64,000 bases of DNA from Gammaproteobacteria bacterium (GTDB lineage Bacteria; Pseudomonadota; Gammaproteobacteria; Burkholderiales; Gallionellaceae): the NCBI GenBank assembly GCA_018814405.1, contig JAHIZO010000005.1:1-64000 (forward strand). The letters are read 5' to 3'. The notes below the pieces were generated by a model. That model did no database searches. It was not told where the DNA came from and saw only the letters and a program-made list of their open reading frames with translations. Below, piece by piece: positions 34,691 to 51,968 of this stretch (within the stretch, counting starts at the first letter, position 1; each line of letters opens with the position of its first letter). The translations under genes and the position numbers were made by a program.

Positions 34691-35563
34691 TTAAGCGAGT
34701 GAAATCCGATCCAGATACCTAGCCCGATAAAGCAACCTCGGATGTTGCGAATCATCAGTGAAGGCACTTCTGTCATGCAGCACGTTGTTGCAGAGCAGGC
34801 CCATGCCGGGTTGCATGGTGGTGTTGAATACTTGCGGGACGTCGGAGGCGAGTAGGGCTTCTAGGGCGGCGACGGCAGCTTGGGTGGCGTCGTCTTGCTT
34901 CCATTCGATGCTGCGGGTGCGGGCGGTGTAGCGCATGTGCAGGTTGCCGTCTGCATCTGTTGAAAAGACCGGGCCGCTTTGGGCGGGGCGTACGCCGTCG
35001 TTCTCGTCCACACGTTCGGGGATGGTCATCACATCCGGTTGCATCAGTGCTTTGATGTGCGCCGGGTCTTGTTCGCGCAGCAGCAGGTAGCACAGCTCGT
35101 GATCCATCAGTCGGTTCTCGCCGCCGCTTATCGCATCGCGCACGCAGTGCAGCACCATGGCGCGTATTTGTCTTTCGGGCGGGTTGTAGTAGCCGTCGGT
35201 GTGCCACTTGATGGGTTTGTCGGTGTAGGGGATGTAGTGCTTGCGCGTGCCGCCGTCGAACACGCGGATGGACGATACGCCGTCTTCGCCGGCCAGCCAG
35301 TTGGCATCTAAATTGTTCAGGCCGAATTGCTCACCGAGTTTGCGCAGGATGTTGCTGTCTTCTTCCAACATGGGGCTGGCGTAGATGGCCATGTTGCAGC
35401 GGCGAATGCGATCTGCGAGTGCCGCGTGTTCGCTTGCGTTGAGTGCGCGCGGGTCTTTGACTTCTACGATGAGGTCTTCTGCGGTGCACGGGGCACTGGC
35501 CAGTTTGGCATCACGCCAGCGCTGGAATGACGAATCGTCGGCGAGGTCGAAGGGATTGTTCAT
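34691..35563 (-). CDS. TauD/TfdA-family Fe(II)/2-oxoglutarate dioxygenase
   Basis: A 290-aa protein with the TauD fold. The metal-binding HxD is in KWHTDGYYN (near residue 120) and a distal His probably lies in LHDRSAF near the C terminus, followed by the 2-oxoglutarate-binding Arg region PRLLYRARYLDR. TauD enzymes release sulfite from taurine or alkylsulfonates, but others act on different substrates, and the substrate here is not determined. I start at 35563 (MNNPFDLADD), overlapping the stop of the upstream gene. It is the last gene of the six-gene operon divergent from dsrA, which makes an organosulfur or sulfur-carrier substrate plausible. Confidence 0.85.
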   Translation of the reverse strand: MNNPFDLADDSSFQRWRDAKLASAPCTAEDLIVEVKDPRALNASEHAALADRIRRCNMAIYASPMLEEDSNILRKLGEQFGLNNLDANWLAGEDGVSSIRVFDGGTRKHYIPYTDKPIKWHTDGYYNPPERQIRAMVLHCVRDAISGGENRLMDHELCYLLLREQDPAHIKALMQPDVMTIPERVDENDGVRPAQSGPVFSTDADGNLHMRYTARTRSIEWKQDDATQAAVAALEALLASDVPQVFNTTMQPGMGLLCNNVLHDRSAFTDDSQHPRLLYRARYLDRISLA

Positions 35564-36198
35564 CAGTCGCCGCTGGTGCCGCTGCGTTTGCGTGCCGGGC
35601 GGGGCTCTTCTTCCCACAGGCCACGCAACGTCTTCTCCACCAGTTTCACGGTATCGGGCGCTTCAAAGCTGATCATCGGGTCGATGATCCACTTGGCGTC
35701 TTCTTCGCTGAGGATCTGGCTGATGCAGTAGGCAAGGAAACGGTAGAAGCCGTAGTCTGGGCCGTTCTCGTCGTAGCCGAAATCGGCGTATTCACCGGCA
35801 CGCTGATTGAGCAGGTCGATGAATTGCTGTTTGCAGGCGGACTGTTCGGTTTCCAGCAATCGGCTGCGGTTCTCGGCGTAGGTCTCGCCCGTGCGATTGG
35901 CCAGATTGCCGGTGAAAATCAGCCGGTCTTCTTCGGATAGTTTCCGATAGGCAAGTCGATCCGCAACGAGGATGAGGAACACCAGATATTCGGCGAGGAA
36001 ATCCAGATACTGCGGCCCGGCCTCGATATTGAAATCGTCCTTGCGCGTGCGGCGCAGGGATGCATCGGCGATACGCCAGAGCGTGAAGGCGAGGGCGTCC
36101 GATATTTCTTGCGGCGAACGCGCCCGGCCATCCTTGAACCAGTTGCTCTTGATGCGGATCGCGACGTGGGCTTTATCCCTTGCGGATGAAGAACTCAT
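35563..36198 (-). CDS. Unknown 211-aa protein of the dsr-divergent operon
   Basis: I do not recognise this family. The soluble protein lacks a signal peptide and membrane segments and is rich in charged and aromatic residues, with a helical look (residues 10-170). It contains only two Cys, in SACKQQF and AYCISQ. Notable stretches are NIEAGPQYLDFLAEYLVFL and YDENGPDYGFYRFLAYC. The C-terminal tail is basic and disordered-looking (RPARKRSGTSGD). The start at 36198 (MSSSSARDK) overlaps the tandem TusA gene by 26 bases and the stop overlaps the dioxygenase start, so it is translated within the same operon. Confidence 0.7.
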   Translation of the reverse strand: MSSSSARDKAHVAIRIKSNWFKDGRARSPQEISDALAFTLWRIADASLRRTRKDDFNIEAGPQYLDFLAEYLVFLILVADRLAYRKLSEEDRLIFTGNLANRTGETYAENRSRLLETEQSACKQQFIDLLNQRAGEYADFGYDENGPDYGFYRFLAYCISQILSEEDAKWIIDPMISFEAPDTVKLVEKTLRGLWEEEPRPARKRSGTSGD

Positions 36199-36655
36199 GC
36201 ACACCTGCCGAAGTTTCAAGGGTTTCCAGCACAGTCATGCCGGTGCTGGCTGCCCAGCCTTCGATGTCCGATGCCACACCGGGACAATCGCTGATGAGCT
36301 TGAGCACTTCGTTCGTCTGCATGCCGTTCAGCAACTTCTTGGCTTCGACGATAGGGCCGGGGCAGACTGCGCCGCGGATATCCAGCGAGACGTGCGCATG
36401 CGGATGCTTCGCGCTCTTGCCACCTTTCTGGATGTGATAGCCGGTGCTGCCACCTTCTATCTTCTCGGTCTTGATGATCGAATTGCCGGTCAGTTCAGCC
36501 CAGGAAAATAGATCGTCCGGTGTGCCGGGGCAGTTGGAGATCAGCAGCAGTACTTGGCCGGGATTCAATTCGTCCACCATGCGCTTGGCACCGATCAGCG
36601 GCTTGGGGCAAGACAGCCCCTTCATATCCAGTACTACATGTACGTTGTCATCCAT
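36173..36655 (-). CDS. Tandem TusA-domain sulfur carrier protein
   Basis: A 160-aa protein made of two TusA/SirA-like domains in one chain: residues 5-78 with Cys16 in GLSCPKPL and residues 86-160 with Cys98 in GAVCPGPI. Each half also has the second conserved CPG, SNCPGTPDDL (Cys42) and SDCPGVASDI (Cys124). TusA proteins carry sulfane sulfur as a persulfide on the CPxP cysteine and feed DsrEFH. A fused pair could hold two sulfur atoms or relay one internally. The start at 36655 (MDDNVHV) follows a long purine-rich ribosome binding site (AAGGAGAGCAAGGAA). It lies 13 bases after the DsrC-like gene. Confidence 0.9.
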   Translation of the reverse strand: MDDNVHVVLDMKGLSCPKPLIGAKRMVDELNPGQVLLLISNCPGTPDDLFSWAELTGNSIIKTEKIEGGSTGYHIQKGGKSAKHPHAHVSLDIRGAVCPGPIVEAKKLLNGMQTNEVLKLISDCPGVASDIEGWAASTGMTVLETLETSAGVHEFFIRKG

Positions 36656-36668
36656 TTCCTTGCTCTCC

Positions 36669-36998
36669 TTAGTATCCGCCCTTGCCATATGGCTGGGGCA
36701 GTCCTGCGATCTTGGCGGCTTGTTTGGCCGGGCCTGTCGGGAACAGATCATACAGCGCCTTGCTGTCTGCATCTGCCCAGAACTCGTTCACGCCTTTTAG
36801 CATGTTGCGGAAGTTCGGGGTGTGACCTTCTTCGCGATATTGATCGCGCATGTAGTTGATGATCTCCCAGTGTTTGGGGGTCAACTCGATCTGTTCGGCA
36901 GCAGCGATCACACCGACTACTTCTTCGCTGTAATCCGGCTCCAACAGAAAGCCATCGTCATCGGTCGCAAGTTCATTTCCAGCTACTACGTATCCCAT
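36669..36998 (-). CDS. DsrC/TusE-family protein lacking both redox cysteines
   Basis: The 109-aa protein is clearly DsrC-like along its length: DDDGFLLEPDYSEEV, LTPKHWEIINYMRDQY and the C-terminal arm FPTGPAKQAAKIAGLPQP. The two arm cysteines that carry trisulfide chemistry in DsrC are replaced: Ala95 in place of the first Cys (QAAKIAG) and Lys106 in place of the penultimate one (YGKGGY). It cannot do DsrC or TusE sulfur transfer. Cys-less DsrC homologues in sulfur oxidisers have been proposed to be regulatory (RspA). The start at 36998 has AGGAGG 5 bases upstream. The authentic dsrC is at 41.7 kb. Confidence 0.92.
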   Translation of the reverse strand: MGYVVAGNELATDDDGFLLEPDYSEEVVGVIAAAEQIELTPKHWEIINYMRDQYREEGHTPNFRNMLKGVNEFWADADSKALYDLFPTGPAKQAAKIAGLPQPYGKGGY

Positions 36999-37031
36999 CA
37001 TTACCTCCTGTTGAGTCAAAGTTATTGAATG

Positions 37032-37619
37032 TCATTCCAGACCGGATATGACCTTGTGCGGCACAAAGATGCCGCAACCCAGATTGCGCCCGCTACCCAT
37101 GCCGGCGTATTGGATGCGTAAGGAATCTTCAGGTGTCAGATCGTGCATCACCAGACTGAAGCCGCTGAGGGCTTGCTGATCAGTATTCAAGCTGTGATGC
37201 CTGCCGCAAATCAGTTTGCTGCGCACTTCCAGTGCTGCCAGTGCGGCATCCACCATCGCCATGAATTCGATCTCGTCGCTAGGCCCGGCCACCAGATGTG
37301 CATGCAGGGTGGAGTAGGGTTGTATCTCGCGTATCTTGCCTTTTCCTAGTTGCAGGGTATCGCTACCTATTTGCAACGCCTGTTCGGAGAGCGACATCGC
37401 CACATCTTGTAATGCCAGCGGCAAGCGCAGTACCAGCTTGCTGCGTTTGGGGAGTAACAGCTCTCCGTTGTTGTTGGGGCCGCGCAGAGGGATCACGCCC
37501 ACATCTTCACTGGCGGCCAATGCAGGGGCGATGCGCAGCAAGGCATCCCACAGTTTGTGCGGGTAGTCGGCGGGGATGCTTTCGCCGTGCAGGTCGAAGC
37601 TGATCTCTATCGCGCTCAT
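37032..37619 (-). CDS. Cas6/Cmx6-like RNA-endonuclease-family protein without a CRISPR locus
   Basis: The 195-aa protein matches, from my memory of the family, the pattern of the type I-MYXAN Cas6/Cmx6 group: FDLHGESIPADY near the N terminus, GVIPLRG, LVLRLPL, STLHAHLV in the middle, GFSLVMHDLTPEDSLRIQ and the Gly-rich C-terminal loop GMGSGRNLGCGIFVPHK. In Cas6 proteins the Gly-rich loop helps bind crRNA. No repeat array or other cas gene exists here, so a crRNA-processing role is unlikely and a non-CRISPR RNA role must be considered. It is second in the operon divergent from dsrA, overlapping the 71-aa gene (ATGA). The start MSAIEIS at 37619 is chosen over an upstream codon lying inside that gene. 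Confidence 0.75.
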   Translation of the reverse strand: MSAIEISFDLHGESIPADYPHKLWDALLRIAPALAASEDVGVIPLRGPNNNGELLLPKRSKLVLRLPLALQDVAMSLSEQALQIGSDTLQLGKGKIREIQPYSTLHAHLVAGPSDEIEFMAMVDAALAALEVRSKLICGRHHSLNTDQQALSGFSLVMHDLTPEDSLRIQYAGMGSGRNLGCGIFVPHKVISGLE

Positions 37620-37831
37620 GCCTGTTTCTGGGAATCTGCCCAGTCCTGCATGGCGGTCGCCCATTTGCTGGCGGTGGCAGGATCGATATCAAAGATGGTA
37701 AAACGCTTGCCTTCACGGATGCGCACGCGCAGCATGTTCAAGCCGCCTTCTTCATGGTCTACATGCTGCAGTTCGATCTGCTGCTTGCCGATCGGGGCGG
37801 TGAACTGGTCGAGTGCATTGATATGTGCCAT
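37616..37831 (-). CDS. Small conserved protein, first gene of the dsr-divergent operon
   Basis: A 71-aa soluble protein without Cys, starting MAHINALDQFTAPIGKQQIEL and containing the basic stretch MLRVRIREGKRFTIFDIDP. I believe it belongs to an uncharacterised family (possibly DUF6967) seen in sulfur bacteria, but this is from memory. The Arg/Lys-rich strand could bind nucleic acid or a partner protein. It overlaps the Cas6-like gene by 4 bases and begins about 280 bases from dsrA in the opposite direction. Confidence 0.7.
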   Translation of the reverse strand: MAHINALDQFTAPIGKQQIELQHVDHEEGGLNMLRVRIREGKRFTIFDIDPATASKWATAMQDWADSQKQA

Positions 37832-38111
37832 GGCTATCCTATGTGGGTTTCCCGGTTGCCTTAGTCAATGGGTCGGGTAATGCGGCAAGTCTATCCGCAA
37901 TGCCCCCTGCATTGGAATACTACCGGGGAAGGTAAAAGCACCCCCCATTAGAGTTACCTAACATACCCGCTCAGGGTGATGGTCGGCATGGTGACACCCT
38001 CGTAATATGCTCAACCATTAGAAACCGGGACGAAGAGCCCGGACGAAATCAAACCAACCCTGCCGAGCACTGCATAAGCCAGAGGCACAGCAAATCGAAA
38101 GGAAAGACATT
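37832..38111. promoter_or_regulatory. Divergent control region between the accessory operon and dsrA
   Basis: The 280-base gap must hold promoters for both directions. A -10-like TAATAT lies at 38003-38008 on the + strand with no good -35, as expected for an activator-dependent dsr promoter. A hairpin CCGGG/CCCGG (38025-38042) would be at the 5' end of the dsr leader. Other short symmetries include TACC-N6-GGTA near 37921. RBS GGAAAGA precedes dsrA. No FNR box is present. Confidence 0.45.
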
Positions 38112-39407
38112 ATGGCCAAGAAGATGCATGACACGCCCAACCTTGATCAATTGGAGTCCGGCCCTTGGCCTAGCTTCGTCACTGGCCTGAAGGATCTGGC
38201 CAAGGACAAGGACTATGTAGTTGACCTGCTGGGTCAGCTGGAAGAGTCCTACCAGACCAAGAAGGGCTACTGGAAGGGCGGTACAGTCGGTGTGTTCGGT
38301 TATGGTGGCGGTGTGATCCCGCGCTTCACCGAGCTGAAGAACGCAGACGGTACCCCCAAGTTCCCGGACGCAGCTGAATTCCACACCCTGCGCATCATGC
38401 CGCCTCCCGGCATGCACTACGATACGGATACCCTGCGTAAGTTCTGTGACATCTGGGAAGAGCATGGTTCCGGCCTGATCGCTTTCCACGGGCAGTCTGG
38501 TGACATCATGTTCCAGGGCGCGACTACAGAGAACGTGCAAAAGTCCTTCGACGAGATCAACGAGATGGGCTTCGACCTCGGTGGTGCCGGTCCTGCAGTG
38601 CGTACTTCCATGTCTTGTGTGGGTGCGGCACGTTGCGAACAGTCCTGCTACAACGAAGCACAAGCGCACCGCGCCGTGCTGAATACCTTCCTCGACGATA
38701 TCCACCGTCCTTCTCTGCCTTACAAGCTCAAGTTCAAGTTCTCCGGTTGCCCTAACGATTGTATGAACGCGATCCAGCGCTCAGACATCGCCGTGATCGG
38801 CACTTGGCGCGACAACATCCGTACCGACGAAGAGCTGGCCAAGAAGTGGTTCGCCAAGCACGGCATGGACGAGTTGGTGAACGACGTCGTGGCACGTTGC
38901 CCGACCAAGGCTTTCCAAGTCAAAGAGCTTTCCAAGATCAAGGCTGGCGAGCACACCTCTACTGTGGCAGTGAACGACACCCACGGCATCGAGATCAGCA
39001 ACCAGGACTGTGTGCGCTGCATGCACTGCGTGAACGTCATGACCGGCGCTTTGGCTCCGGGTAAGGACAAGGGCGCGACCGTGCTGGTCGGCGGTAAGAG
39101 CCACCTGAAGATCGGCGGCCTGATGGGCACCGTGGTGTTCCCGTTCATCAAGCTGGATACAGAAGAAGAAGTGGCCAGCCTGGTCGACTATGCAGAACGT
39201 CACATCGACTTTTTCGCAGAGAACGCGCTGGAGCATGAACGTTCCGGCGAGATGATCGAGCGTATCGGTTTGGCCAATTATCTCGATGCAATGGAGATCG
39301 AAGTCGATCCGGCCATGGTCAATTCGCCACGTATGAACCCCTACGTCCGTACCGACGGCTGGGAAGACGAAGTCGCCAAGATCAACGCCAAGAAACAAGC
39401 AGCCTGA
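38112..39407 (+). CDS. dsrA: Reverse-type dissimilatory sulfite reductase, alpha subunit
   Basis: Cytoplasmic enzyme working with DsrB; in sulfur oxidisers it oxidises the sulfane sulfur carried by DsrC to sulfite. The 431-aa protein has the siroheme-[4Fe-4S] cysteines in CVGAARCEQSC (near residue 170) and SGCPNDC (near 212), and an inserted ferredoxin domain with CVRCMHC (near 300). The presence of dsrEFH and dsrL in the operon marks the oxidative type. It opens the dsrABEFHCMKLJOPN cluster. Confidence 0.97.
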   Translation: MAKKMHDTPNLDQLESGPWPSFVTGLKDLAKDKDYVVDLLGQLEESYQTKKGYWKGGTVGVFGYGGGVIPRFTELKNADGTPKFPDAAEFHTLRIMPPPGMHYDTDTLRKFCDIWEEHGSGLIAFHGQSGDIMFQGATTENVQKSFDEINEMGFDLGGAGPAVRTSMSCVGAARCEQSCYNEAQAHRAVLNTFLDDIHRPSLPYKLKFKFSGCPNDCMNAIQRSDIAVIGTWRDNIRTDEELAKKWFAKHGMDELVNDVVARCPTKAFQVKELSKIKAGEHTSTVAVNDTHGIEISNQDCVRCMHCVNVMTGALAPGKDKGATVLVGGKSHLKIGGLMGTVVFPFIKLDTEEEVASLVDYAERHIDFFAENALEHERSGEMIERIGLANYLDAMEIEVDPAMVNSPRMNPYVRTDGWEDEVAKINAKKQAA

Positions 39408-39418
39408 GGAGATAGAAG

Positions 39419-40513
39419 ATGAATCAAGCCGTCCAAGCCGCACCCGCAGCAAAGCGCAAGCCGAAGGAAACAGGTGTACCGGAAAATACCAAGTACCTGC
39501 ACCCGACGCTGCTGAAGAACTATGGCAACTGGCGTTATCACGACCGTCCGCGTCCGGGCGTGCTGCATCATGTGGCACACAGCGGCGACGAAGTATGGTC
39601 TGTGCGTGCCGGCACCCAGCGTCAGATGGACGTTCATACCATCCGTAAGCTGTGCGACATCGGCGACAACTTCGCCGAAGGTCGCGTGCGCTTCACCATC
39701 CGTTCCAACATCGAGTACATCGTCACTGATGAAAAGAAGGTTGCGCCGCTGATTGCCGAGCTGGAAAAGAACGGCTTCCCAGTCGGTGGTACGGGTAACT
39801 CGATCACTATGATCGCCCACACCCAAGGCTGGTTGCACTGCGACATCCCCGGCACCGACGCTTCCGGCGTGGTGAAAGCGCTGATGGACGAACTGTATGA
39901 CGAGTTCCGTCGCGAAGAGATGCCTAACCGTGTGCACCTGTCCACTTCTTGCTGCGAGATCAACTGCGGTGGACAGGCCGACTTGGCTGTCATCGTGCAA
40001 CACACCAAGCCGCCCGTGATCAACCATGATCTGGTCGCCAACGTGTGCGAGCGTCCGACAGTGGTTGCGCGTTGCCCGGTTGCGGCGATCCGTCCAGCCA
40101 TGGTCAACGGCAAGCCTTCGCTGGAGATCGACGAATCCAAGTGTATGTGCTGCGGTGCTTGCTACCCCCCATGCCCGCCGATGCAGATCAACGATCCGGA
40201 ATTCTCCAAGCTGGCCATCTGGGTCGGTGGTAAGAACTCCAACGCACGCGGCAAGCCGACCTTCATGAAGATGGTTGCTGCGGGTTTGCCGAACAATCCG
40301 CCACGCTGGCCTGAAGTCGGCGCTGTGGTGAAGAACATCCTCACCGTGTACAAGGATGATGCGCGTCCTTGGGAGCGTCTTGCTGACTGGATCGATCGTA
40401 TCGGCTGGCCTCGTTTCTTCGAGAAGACCGGTCTGCCGTTCACCAAGTACCTGATCGACGACTGGCGCGGTTCGCGTTACAACTTGAACGCTTCGGCACA
40501 TATCCGTTTCTAA
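39419..40513 (+). CDS. dsrB: Reverse-type dissimilatory sulfite reductase, beta subunit
   Basis: Partner of DsrA in the alpha2beta2 enzyme, binding the catalytic siro(heme)amide. The 364-aa protein has the cofactor-site motif TSCCEINCGGQADLA (near residue 175) and a ferredoxin domain with CMCCGACYPPCPPM (near 240). The C terminus (LIDDWRGSRYNLNASAHIRF) is typical. It follows dsrA by 11 bases with GGAG in front of its ATG. Confidence 0.97.
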   Translation: MNQAVQAAPAAKRKPKETGVPENTKYLHPTLLKNYGNWRYHDRPRPGVLHHVAHSGDEVWSVRAGTQRQMDVHTIRKLCDIGDNFAEGRVRFTIRSNIEYIVTDEKKVAPLIAELEKNGFPVGGTGNSITMIAHTQGWLHCDIPGTDASGVVKALMDELYDEFRREEMPNRVHLSTSCCEINCGGQADLAVIVQHTKPPVINHDLVANVCERPTVVARCPVAAIRPAMVNGKPSLEIDESKCMCCGACYPPCPPMQINDPEFSKLAIWVGGKNSNARGKPTFMKMVAAGLPNNPPRWPEVGAVVKNILTVYKDDARPWERLADWIDRIGWPRFFEKTGLPFTKYLIDDWRGSRYNLNASAHIRF

Positions 40514-41621: not shown

Positions 41622-41676
41622 GCGAAATGAGGGAAGAGTAGTCAGCAGCAAACATTATTCATTGAAGGAGATACAC

Positions 41677-42012
41677 ATGGCTAACATCGAAGTCGGCGGC
41701 AAGAGCTACGAAACAGACGAAGAAGGATATTTGGTCAATCTGGGTGAGTGGAATGCAGAAGTTGCTGACTACATCGCCAAGACCGAAAGCATCGAGATGA
41801 CAGACCAGCACTGGGAAGTGATCAACTTCCTGCGCGAATATTTCGACGAATATCAGATCGCACCCGCAGTGCGCGTACTGACCAAAGCGATCGGCAAGAA
41901 GCTGGGCGCAGAGAAGGGCAACAGCGAATACCTGTATGGTCTGTTCCCATATGGTCCGGGTAAGCAGGCGTGCAAGATCGCCGGTCTGCCCAAGCCAACC
42001 GGCTGCGTTTGA
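41677..42012 (+). CDS. dsrC: Sulfur carrier protein DsrC
   Basis: Small cytoplasmic protein that carries sulfane sulfur between DsrEFH, DsrAB and DsrMK. The 111-aa protein has both arm cysteines: Cys99 in GKQACKIAGLP and the penultimate Cys110 in PTGCV, so it is a true DsrC rather than TusE. Start ATG 41677 has AAGGAG 6 bases upstream; an earlier in-frame codon adds five foreign residues. Contrast with the Cys-less homologue at 36.7 kb. Confidence 0.97.
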   Translation: MANIEVGGKSYETDEEGYLVNLGEWNAEVADYIAKTESIEMTDQHWEVINFLREYFDEYQIAPAVRVLTKAIGKKLGAEKGNSEYLYGLFPYGPGKQACKIAGLPKPTGCV

Positions 42013-49993: not shown

Positions 49994-50589
49994 CACAAGC
50001 ACTGTACCAAGCAGCCATCGCGGCATTCGACAAAGCCAATTCCGAAGATCCGAATCTGGAAGTGTTCGAGGGCAAGACTTATCCGAAGGAACTGCTGTAC
50101 GCAGAGCGCATGACAGAGATGCAGGAGCGTTTCGCGCCCGACGCATCGGAAGCAGTCAAGCTGGCCTGTCGTGCACAACACATCCAGCGCTGGAAAAGCC
50201 CGCGCAGTGATTACCCGATGGACAAGAAGGGTTACATGCTGTGGCGCACCAATCTGTACAAGTTCCACGCTGAGACCGCCGGTGCCCTGATGAAAGAAGT
50301 GGGCTACGACGACGAGATGATCGCGCGCGTGAAGACTATCGTCGGCAAGAAAGACATGAAGACCAATCCCGAGACACAGTTGATGGAAGACGTGGTCGAC
50401 CTGTGCTTCATCGAGCACTACATGCTGCACTTCGCCGAGATGAAGCCGGACTACGACGAAGCCAAGTGGATCCTCATCATCAAGAAGACTTGGGACAAGA
50501 TGTCCGACAGCGCGCATGCGTTCGCGCTTGCCGGCAAGATCAAGTTGCCGGAAGCATTGGTTCCGCTGATCCTGAAGGCGATCCAGTAA
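49990..50589 (+). CDS. DUF4202 protein between dsrN and cysG
   Basis: The 199-aa soluble protein, from memory of the family, fits DUF4202: [54 protein letters not shown] and the acidic [16 protein letters not shown]. Several His and Asp/Glu suggest an HD-like metal site ([21 protein letters not shown]), but this is inference. No biochemical function is known to me. It is translationally coupled to both neighbours (ATGA with dsrN, TAATG with cysG), so a link to siroheme or siroamide is plausible. Confidence 0.8.
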
Positions 50590-51968
50590 TGGATTACTTG
50601 CCTGTATTCCAGAAGATCGACGGCCGCCTGTGTCTGGTGGTCGGAGGCGGCGTGGTCGGCGCACGCAAGGCGGGCGTGCTGCTCGAAGCCGGTGCCAAAG
50701 TGCGTGTGGTCGCGCCCGAGATCGACGAGGAGCTGAAGTCACAAGCCAACGTCGAGGCCGTGCTCGCCCGTTTCGAGCCGCAGCATCTGGATGGTGTAGC
50801 GCTGATCATCGCCGCCACCAATGATCGCGCAGTGAACAAGCAGGTGTCCGAGCTGGCACAGGCACGCAATATTCCAGTCAACGTGGTGGACGATCCCGAG
50901 CTGTGCAGTTTCATCATGCCAGCCATCATGGATAGGTCGCCACTTATGGTGGCGTTCTCCAGCGGTGGTGCCTCACCAGTGTTGACACGCATGATGCGCG
51001 GCAAGCTGGAGACCGTCATCCCGCAGAACTACAGCAATCTCGCTGGCTTTGCCGAGCGTTTCCGGGAAGAGGTGAAGAAGCGCGTGACTAATCCAGCCAA
51101 GCGTCGCATCTTCTGGGAGAACGTGTTCGACGGCGTGGTGGCAGAGAAGGTGCTGACCGGGGACGAGGCGGCTGCCGAAGCCATGCTGCAACAGATGTTG
51201 GCCGACGAAGACAACATCGTGCGCGGCGAGGTGTATCTGGTTGGCGCCGGTCCCGGCGATCCGGACCTGCTTACTTTCCGCGCGCTGCGTCTGATGCAGA
51301 AGGCCGATGTGGTGGTGTATGACGCGCTGGTGTCCAAGCCCATCGTGGAGATGACGCGCCGCGATGCGGATCGCATCTTCGTCGGCAAGCGTCGTGCCGA
51401 CCATGCTTTGCCGCAGGAAGAGATCAATCTGCTGCTGGTGCGTCTAGCCAAGGAAGGCAAGCGCGTGCTGCGTCTGAAGGGCGGCGACCCGTTCATCTTC
51501 GGTCGCGGCGGCGAGGAGATCGAGACACTGGCGGCGGAAGGTATCCCGTTCCAGGTGGTGCCCGGCATCACCGCCGCTTCCGGTGTCGCGTCCTACGCGG
51601 GAATCCCGCTGACCCATAGAGACCATGCGCAATCCTGCCTGTTCGTCACCGGCCACCTCAAGGACGGCACGATGAATCTGGACTGGGAGCAACTGGCCCG
51701 TCCGCGTCAGACCGTGGTGGTGTACATGGGCCTGCATGGTCTGGATATTCTGTGCGCGAAACTGATCGAACACGGTATGCCCGACACTACGCCTATCGCT
51801 ATCGTGCAGCACGGCACGCAGCCCACGCAACGCGTGTTCACCGGCACACTTGCAACACTGCCTGGCATCGCCGAGCGCGAGAAGCCTGTCGCGCCAACAC
51901 TGATCATCGTCGGCGGGGTTGTCACCTTGCGCGAGAAACTTGCGTGGTTCCATCCGCAGCAGAACTAG
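50589..51968 (+). CDS. cysG: Siroheme synthase CysG (trifunctional)
   Basis: Makes siroheme from uroporphyrinogen III: two methylations, dehydrogenation and iron insertion. The 459-aa protein combines the precorrin-2 dehydrogenase/ferrochelatase half ([22 protein letters not shown] at the N terminus, [17 protein letters not shown]) and the methyltransferase half from about residue 212 ([35 protein letters not shown]). Its location behind dsrN supplies the DsrAB cofactor. Start ATG 50589 overlaps the preceding stop by one base. Confidence 0.96.

Follow-up and report, generated by a model that had tools for sequence, protein, structure and literature searches.

A Cas6-family gene without CRISPR genes accompanies the dissimilatory sulfite reductase genes in beta- and gammaproteobacteria

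The window, i.e., the whole 64-kb stretch of DNA that was analyzed, contained a dsr operon and, on the opposite strand, a compact group of genes that diverged from dsrA. The following features were recognized:

34691..35560, minus strand: TauD-like Fe/2-oxoglutarate dioxygenase (PF02668, E 1.5e-18)
35563..36189, minus strand: conserved protein of about 208 aa with no assigned family (seen in 74 of the 80 named loci; 38 members aligned)
36173..36655, minus strand: tandem TusA-domain protein (PF01206, two stretches)
36669..36998, minus strand: DsrC/TusE-like paralogue with a GKGGY end, penultimate Cys absent (PF04358, E 2.4e-33; longer ORF 36669-37019)
37032..37619, minus strand: Cas6-family protein, 195 aa, of a dsr-linked, CRISPR-free clade (profile searches, PDB match, tree and predicted fold)
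37616..37831, minus strand: 71-aa DUF6967 protein (PF22295), encoded at the head of the divergent operon (family search)
37832..38111, no strand: intergenic region between the divergent module and dsrA (by position)
38112..39407, plus strand: dsrA, dissimilatory sulfite reductase alpha (TIGR02064, 493 bits)
39419..40513, plus strand: dsrB (ORF and homology across loci; named from homology)
41662..42012, plus strand: canonical dsrC belonging to the dsr operon; its product ends in ...ACKIAGLPKPTGCV with two Cys, in contrast to the paralogue (ORF and C-terminal comparison)

The divergent genes are read in the order DUF6967, Cas6-like, DsrC-like, tandem TusA, the protein of 35563-36189, and TauD-like. 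All of them diverge from dsrA, and the stop codon of the DUF6967 gene overlaps the ATG of the Cas6-like gene, which agrees with the tight operon that the initial annotation had described. That annotation had also regarded the neighbours as sulfur-carrier genes; this may be right for the tandem TusA protein, but probably not for the DsrC-like protein, which lacks the penultimate Cys and is an unlikely carrier. The dsrA gene is presumably of the oxidative type because dsrEFH and dsrL adjoin it. The protein of 35563-36189 had no Pfam or NCBIfam match up to E 0.1, and R12, E67, D77, R78, R89, Y134, D164, W167, and P178 were invariant among its 38 aligned members. An imperfect palindrome, TACCCGCTCAGGGTGA, possibly a regulator site, was noticed by eye in the intergenic region (37832-38111), and similar ACCC..GGGT elements were seen by eye in the dsrA intergenic regions of several relatives. 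The window starts with the 3' part of a 5S rRNA gene (1-88), and an Rfam scan of the window at gathering scores returned this partial 5S rRNA only.

The 195-aa protein had been likened to Cas6/Cmx6 by four motifs (IPADY, GVIPLRG, LTPEDSLRIQ, and a Gly-rich loop), all of which were present. It exceeded the curated cut-offs of both Pfam PF09559 (Cas6; 187 bits, cut-off 26.7, E 4.7e-55) and NCBIfam TIGR02807 (cas6_cmx6; 145.9 bits, cut-off 98.85), was matched by the Cas6 models of PADLOC (best E 1.3e-54), and carries the NCBI model label 'type I-MYXAN CRISPR-associated protein Cas6/Cmx6'. The sole PDB sequence matched by phmmer up to E 10 was 8fcj_B, a type I-B Cas6 (E 5.8e-15), and this match rose to E 1.1e-31 with a profile of the window protein (P0001) and 80 relatives. 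An AlphaFold2 model based on the alignment of these 81 proteins had a mean pLDDT of 93, and the top PDB chains in Foldseek were 8fcu_B (TMq 0.89) and 8fcj_B (TMq 0.87), followed at lower rank by other Cas6 chains, among them 3i4h (0.66), the Cas6 of P. furiosus, and Cas6e. The structure comparison thus agreed with the profile searches, reaching a TM-score of 0.89 to type I-B Cas6. As far as prediction goes, it is sure that the protein has a Cas6 (RAMP) fold with a C-terminal Gly-rich loop, and the product of 37032-37619 is, by sequence and predicted fold, a relative of Cas6.

A simple exact-repeat scan of the 64-kb window found no CRISPR-like repeat array, and the ten window proteins neighbouring the Cas6-like gene had no match to a PADLOC Cas model at E 0.001; the DUF6967 protein gave a weak ThsB match only. 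The absence of an array and of other cas genes, as first noted for the window, thus stood up in both scans. The genome assembly to which the window belongs comprises 2.38 Mb in 10 contigs and is 98.7% complete. It contains a single PF09559 gene; searches of the assembly for Cas1 and Cas2 gave no match, and a search for the Cas3 core gave helicase matches below the cut-off only. In a survey of 274 genomes sampled evenly across the class, 42 had both the Cas6-like gene and Cas1, 49 had the Cas6-like gene only, 62 Cas1 only, and 121 neither (p 0.06). Cas1 was therefore absent from 49 of the 91 carriers, and the Cas6-like gene, judged by Cas1, does not always accompany CRISPR. A role in crRNA processing for a CRISPR system at another place in the genome would fit the family names in Pfam and NCBIfam, but it is scarcely credible for a protein whose own genome has no Cas1, no Cas2, and no Cas3 above the cut-off, whose association with Cas1 is not significant, and which falls in a separate clade (see below). 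On the same grounds, any CRISPR function of the protein was rejected as very unlikely.

The Cas6-like gene tracks dsr, while its association with Cas1 is not significant. Among 120 genomes of the window's own family, 68 had both the Cas6-like gene and dsrA, none the Cas6-like gene only, two dsrA only, and 50 neither, with dsrA accepted at E below 1e-20 and one genome (G648) added by hand; this genome has a dsrA fragment (E 1e-16) at 0.84 kb from its Cas6-like gene, and without it the table reads 67/1/2/50. Both genomes with dsrA only are cases of contig ends, one ending 0.55 kb upstream of dsrA (G562) and the other holding a dsrA fragment at the contig start (G602). Five genera of this family include both states, with the Cas6-like gene and dsrA changing together; one genus has 21 genomes with both and 17 with neither. 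Across the 274 class genomes, PF09559 was found in 91 and dsrA in 94, and the counts (both, Cas6-like only, dsrA only, neither) were 87/4/7/176 (Fisher 2e-57, kinship ignored), where any dsrA piece at 100 bits or more was counted and lower-scoring matches were attributed to other sulfite reductases. The Fisher p values ignore phylogeny, and the mixture of states within genera of the family survey is the better control. The survey of dsr genomes proposed at the outset thus revealed co-occurrence with dsrA rather than with Cas1.

The two genes are also physically linked. In 66 of the 91 carriers, dsrA was located on the same contig, and 65 of these pairs were divergent neighbours with a gap of 0.5-4.5 kb. 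The odd pair belongs to a 1.4-Mb genome (G109), in which the Cas6-like gene lies 41 kb from dsrA and the TauD gene and the DsrC paralogue with its KGGY tail are retained at other places in this genome. There, the Cas6-like gene (locus L156, 6779-7441) is divergent from a gene that we take to be RNase III-like. In eight of the 11 discordant class genomes, the contig breaks off at the expected position of the missing gene. In all four genomes with the Cas6-like gene only (G067, G093, G127, and G186), the contig ends in the TauD gene or at most 0.42 kb from it, on the side where dsrA is expected. For those with dsrA only, less than 0.7 kb is available upstream of dsrA in G070, G110, and G207, the contig of G123 ends behind TauD-f19, and G079 and G238 are fragments. 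G211 is an unexplained exception, with 7.8 kb upstream of one dsrA piece lacking the module; a TauD relative adjoins its second dsrA piece on another contig. In a sample of 299 genomes from the phylum, dsrA exceeded the cut-off in 51, and the Cas6-like gene was present in four of four from the window's own order and in none of 47 from other classes. Within the sampled Pseudomonadota, the Cas6-like gene is confined to one class, for which the name beta/gammaproteobacteria was taken from the names of the relatives' loci, and there it is a nearly constant companion of dsr. In a collection with a single genome for each species, at least 580 stretches code for relatives that bear the C-terminal pattern of the clade. 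The gene is retained even in three genomes of 1.0-1.1 Mb.

The gene neighbourhood was compared across 80 named loci, which are the best 80 of at least 580 relatives and are biased to near kin of the window; they come from Gallionellaceae, Thiobacillus, Sulfuricella, Sulfurisoma, and others. Besides the Cas6-like gene, these loci contained DUF6967 (75), the protein of 35563-36189 (74), TauD-like (61), and tandem TusA (32) genes. The Cas6-like module was divergently adjoined by dsrA in 76 loci, and the other four start at a contig end. A further 36 gammaproteobacterial loci (L119-L154) were picked for having dsrA on the same contig, so that their dsrA neighbourhood is no evidence of linkage, and they leave out 15 further same-contig pairs. 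Their order is TauD-like (33), a small protein f19 (33), f4 (17), Cas6-like, and DsrC-like; DUF6967 occurs in one of them and tandem TusA in none.

Parts of this module occur in another class. TauD-like, f19, and DUF6967-like genes diverge from dsrA in four other-class loci (L157, L158, L172, and L173) that have no Cas6-like gene, and a CysG-type siroheme synthase is next in three of the four. In the other-class loci L176, L178, and L179, the divergent dsr-side operon was seen to consist of TauD-like, f19, DUF6967-like, and CysG-type siroheme synthase genes. CysG at that place was found in three of 123 loci, all without a Cas6-like gene; the window's own CysG-type gene is located at 50589-51956. 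None of the module genes was present in the other-class dsrAB loci L169-L171 and L174, for which at least 5.9 kb upstream of dsrA was covered, while L168 covers 0.7 kb upstream of dsrA only. It appears that the Cas6-like gene joined, in this class, a dsr-side module of wider distribution.

The usual partner of the Cas6-like gene is a DsrC-family gene. A gene with a GGY or AGY tail was located at most 3.5 kb downstream in 73 of the 80 beta and 31 of the 36 gamma loci; seven beta and five gamma loci had none within this distance. The tail is of the KGGY type with basic residues. The penultimate Cys, the sulfur-binding residue of DsrC (PMC3397948), was absent in 104 of 104 of these partners and present in 59 of 59 DsrC proteins of dsr operons. 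The paralogue is therefore unlikely, from its sequence, to be a sulfur carrier. The count of 104 excludes two opposite-strand Cys-free tails, since a stop codon was required there, and the second downstream copy in L134, which has the penultimate Cys and no GGY tail; some further Cys-free downstream copies carry another tail. Ten downstream tails have a single Cys among their last 26 residues, mostly at the place of DsrC Cys100 and in one case, the L134 copy, as the penultimate residue. Because about eight partner copies keep a Cys near that place, the description "without cysteine" is true of the sulfur-binding Cys only. The partner shares the DsrC family (PF04358) with TusE and with the RspA-type homologues that lack the two cysteines, but it differs from DsrC and TusE by its KGGY end and the missing penultimate Cys. 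The name RspA was reportedly given to such homologues in a 2014 review by Venceslau et al., and we know of no Cas6-like gene beside an RspA-type homologue in that literature.

Neighbours from the TusE/DsrC and TusA families could indicate that the Cas6-like protein acts with them in thiolating tRNA or modifying it in another way. This is highly doubtful, for the TusE-like partner has no penultimate Cys, the tandem TusA gene is found in 32 of the 80 named and none of the 36 gamma loci, and the presence of the Cas6-like gene follows dsrA, which is unneeded for tRNA thiolation; the Tus pathway thiolates tRNA independently of dsrA.

The Cas6-like protein itself forms a distinct clade. An unrooted tree of 65 sequences (29 of the 81 beta proteins, 28 gamma, seven CRISPR-linked, and the cyanobacterial L116; long branches BE_L063 and CR_L114) split the 57 dsr-linked sequences from the CRISPR side with a support of 100/99. 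The other side held the seven CRISPR-linked sequences and L116, which has no cas genes in its stretch. The L116 gene (3971-4762 of a Gloeobacter morelensis plasmid) is of the PF09559 type and annotated as Cas6/Cmx6; its 8.6-kb stretch contains no annotated cas genes, and the neighbours are a PAPS-reductase-family protein and a cupin. It is possible that this represents a second CRISPR-free use of the family. The dsr-linked clade is marked by R59, E116, G139, and a C-terminal PHK. Compared with its nearest named relative (L032), the window gene had a dN/dS of about 0.14, which indicates purifying selection.

Proteins linked to dsr and those linked to CRISPR both retain the Gly-rich loop. R65 was found in all sequences of all groups; R59 and K189 occurred throughout the beta and gamma sequences, followed by H188 (100% of beta, 92% of gamma) and R178 (97% and 89%). 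On the other hand, the mean net charge per 100 aa was +3.4 for the seven CRISPR-linked, -0.4 for the 81 beta, and -2.3 for the 28 gamma sequences, and the window protein has a net charge of -6 in all. The presumed catalytic His of RAMP nucleases directly follows the first strand, and even within Cas6 its conservation is incomplete (PMC3150331). At this position, equated by its place in the alignment, the window protein has Tyr19, six of the seven CRISPR-linked sequences have His, the gamma sequences have His (92%) or gaps, and the 81 beta sequences have His (about 53%), Tyr (25%), or Asn (17%). Because the His varies even among Cas6 proteins, Tyr19 is not decisive against membership.

The loss of net positive charge would be expected if the Cas6 fold had been reused for an accessory protein that binds no RNA but instead binds the DsrC paralogue and DsrAB, aiding assembly, siroheme loading, or gated access of DsrC. 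A DsrC-family protein is indeed the usual neighbour, and in L176, L178, and L179 the CysG-type siroheme synthase follows TauD-f19-DUF6967 where no Cas6-like gene is present. However, the dsr-linked proteins retain the Gly-rich loop together with several basic residues, and the CysG link is indirect, as it comes from 3 of 123 loci that all lack the Cas6-like gene. Such a role is possible but somewhat unlikely.

An RNA target was sought in the leaders of the dsr island. The 80-nt dsrA leaders were not more stable than dinucleotide shuffles in either the 74 beta loci including the window (mean z -0.41, five below -2) or the 36 gamma loci (mean z -0.49, one below -2), and neither were 76 DUF6967 leaders (mean z -0.32, five below -2). 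A general dsrA-leader hairpin was rejected, given that there was no excess of stability over the shuffles. The window's own 80-nt leader had a z of about -1.6; by eye, it contains a small hairpin, CCGGG..CCCGG (38025-38042), in which one pair is G-U in L032. Five related leaders (L070, L072, L088, L092, and L101), picked by eye from 110 with L069, L075, L078, and L100 left out, have an 11-bp hairpin; a T-rich tract and then the dsrA ribosome-binding site come directly after it. Three pairs of the hairpin are changed on both sides; double-sided changes as high occurred in 4 of 500 shuffles, and the changes come from two leaders. Among the five measures, that of further pair types did not place the hairpin above the shuffles (7 vs. 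a mean of 7.6). This covarying hairpin of one clade is a lead suggested by sequence and not a result.

The initial annotation had proposed that the protein binds or cuts dsr or sulfur-carrier mRNAs. The five-leader hairpin speaks for this proposal, and the absence of a general leader structure, the lost positive charge, and the Tyr in place of His speak against it. For cutting in particular, an active endoribonuclease that cleaves a hairpin in the dsrA leader or in another dsr transcript in the manner of Cas6 would accord with the fold, the first-strand His in 92% of gamma and about 53% of beta sequences, and the hairpin of the five leaders. It is nevertheless quite improbable, considering Tyr19 in the window, Tyr and Asn in 25% and 17% of the beta sequences, and the lack of a general hairpin signal.

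An RNA-level role of the Cas6-like protein remains plausible, and the reading that we tentatively favour is RNA-binding control of the dsr island by the Cas6-like protein together with the DsrC paralogue. The protein would then be an RNA-binding control protein, probably mostly non-catalytic, with an RNA face formed by the conserved Gly-rich loop and the basic R59, R65, R178, H188, and K189. The paralogue, which lacks the usual residue for carrying sulfur, could have a regulatory role as a sensor of true DsrC or as its competitor. Together with the paralogue, the Cas6-like protein may bind transcripts from the dsr island, so that their stability or translation would follow the state of sulfur oxidation. 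The Cas6 fold, the dsr linkage, the separation from CRISPR Cas6 in the tree, purifying selection, the kept loop and basic residues, the KGGY tail and missing penultimate Cys of the partner, and the five-leader hairpin may be counted in favour of RNA control. Counted against it are the Tyr or variable His and the four dsrEFH-bearing dsr loci of another class without a Cas6-like gene, but the main arguments against it are the loss of positive charge and the missing general hairpin. A more far-reaching form of RNA control, which we regard as speculative, is that the oxidative dsr island of beta- and gammaproteobacteria acquired a Cas6-family RNA-binder in a single event; there, it and the DsrC paralogue without the sulfur-binding Cys would form a dedicated device for RNA-level control of sulfur oxidation, with leader-hairpin targets that diverge with the protein by clade.

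The protein shares with type I-B (I-MYXAN) Cas6/Cmx6 the family over curated cut-offs, the fold (TM-score 0.89), and the Gly-rich loop; 8fcj_B belongs to a type I-B CAST, and the homologues on cyanobacterial plasmids (L112-L115, L117, and L118) each adjoin other cas genes. In contrast to these CRISPR proteins, the window protein has neither cas genes nor an array with it, is linked to dsr, forms a distinct clade marked by R59/E116/G139/PHK, has no net positive charge, and has Tyr in place of His. The dsr island is already known to include accessory genes such as dsrR, dsrS, and dsrT (PMC11406059), among which the Cas6-like gene would rank as another. In this 2024 paper, which deals with how sulfur oxidation by Dsr arose and spread, a search for CRISPR gave no hit (PMC11406059). 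A link between Cas6 and dsr was unreported in the titles and opening parts of abstracts retrieved by a full-text search of openly licensed PubMed Central, where subscription journals are mostly outside the coverage. To our knowledge, none of dsrR, dsrS, dsrT, and the other accessory genes encodes a Cas6-family protein, and the link is likely to be novel.

A CRISPR-free Cas6 relative beside dsr points to a second job for the Cas6 family. Matches to PF09559 or TIGR02807 are by themselves no proof of CRISPR, because the NCBI label names CRISPR for a gene that tracks dsr, not Cas1, in the surveyed genomes. If the linkage is functional, the Cas6-like protein would be an unrecognized component of oxidative dissimilatory sulfur metabolism in beta- and gammaproteobacteria, and a CRISPR RNA processor, or its ancestor, would have taken on a metabolic role.
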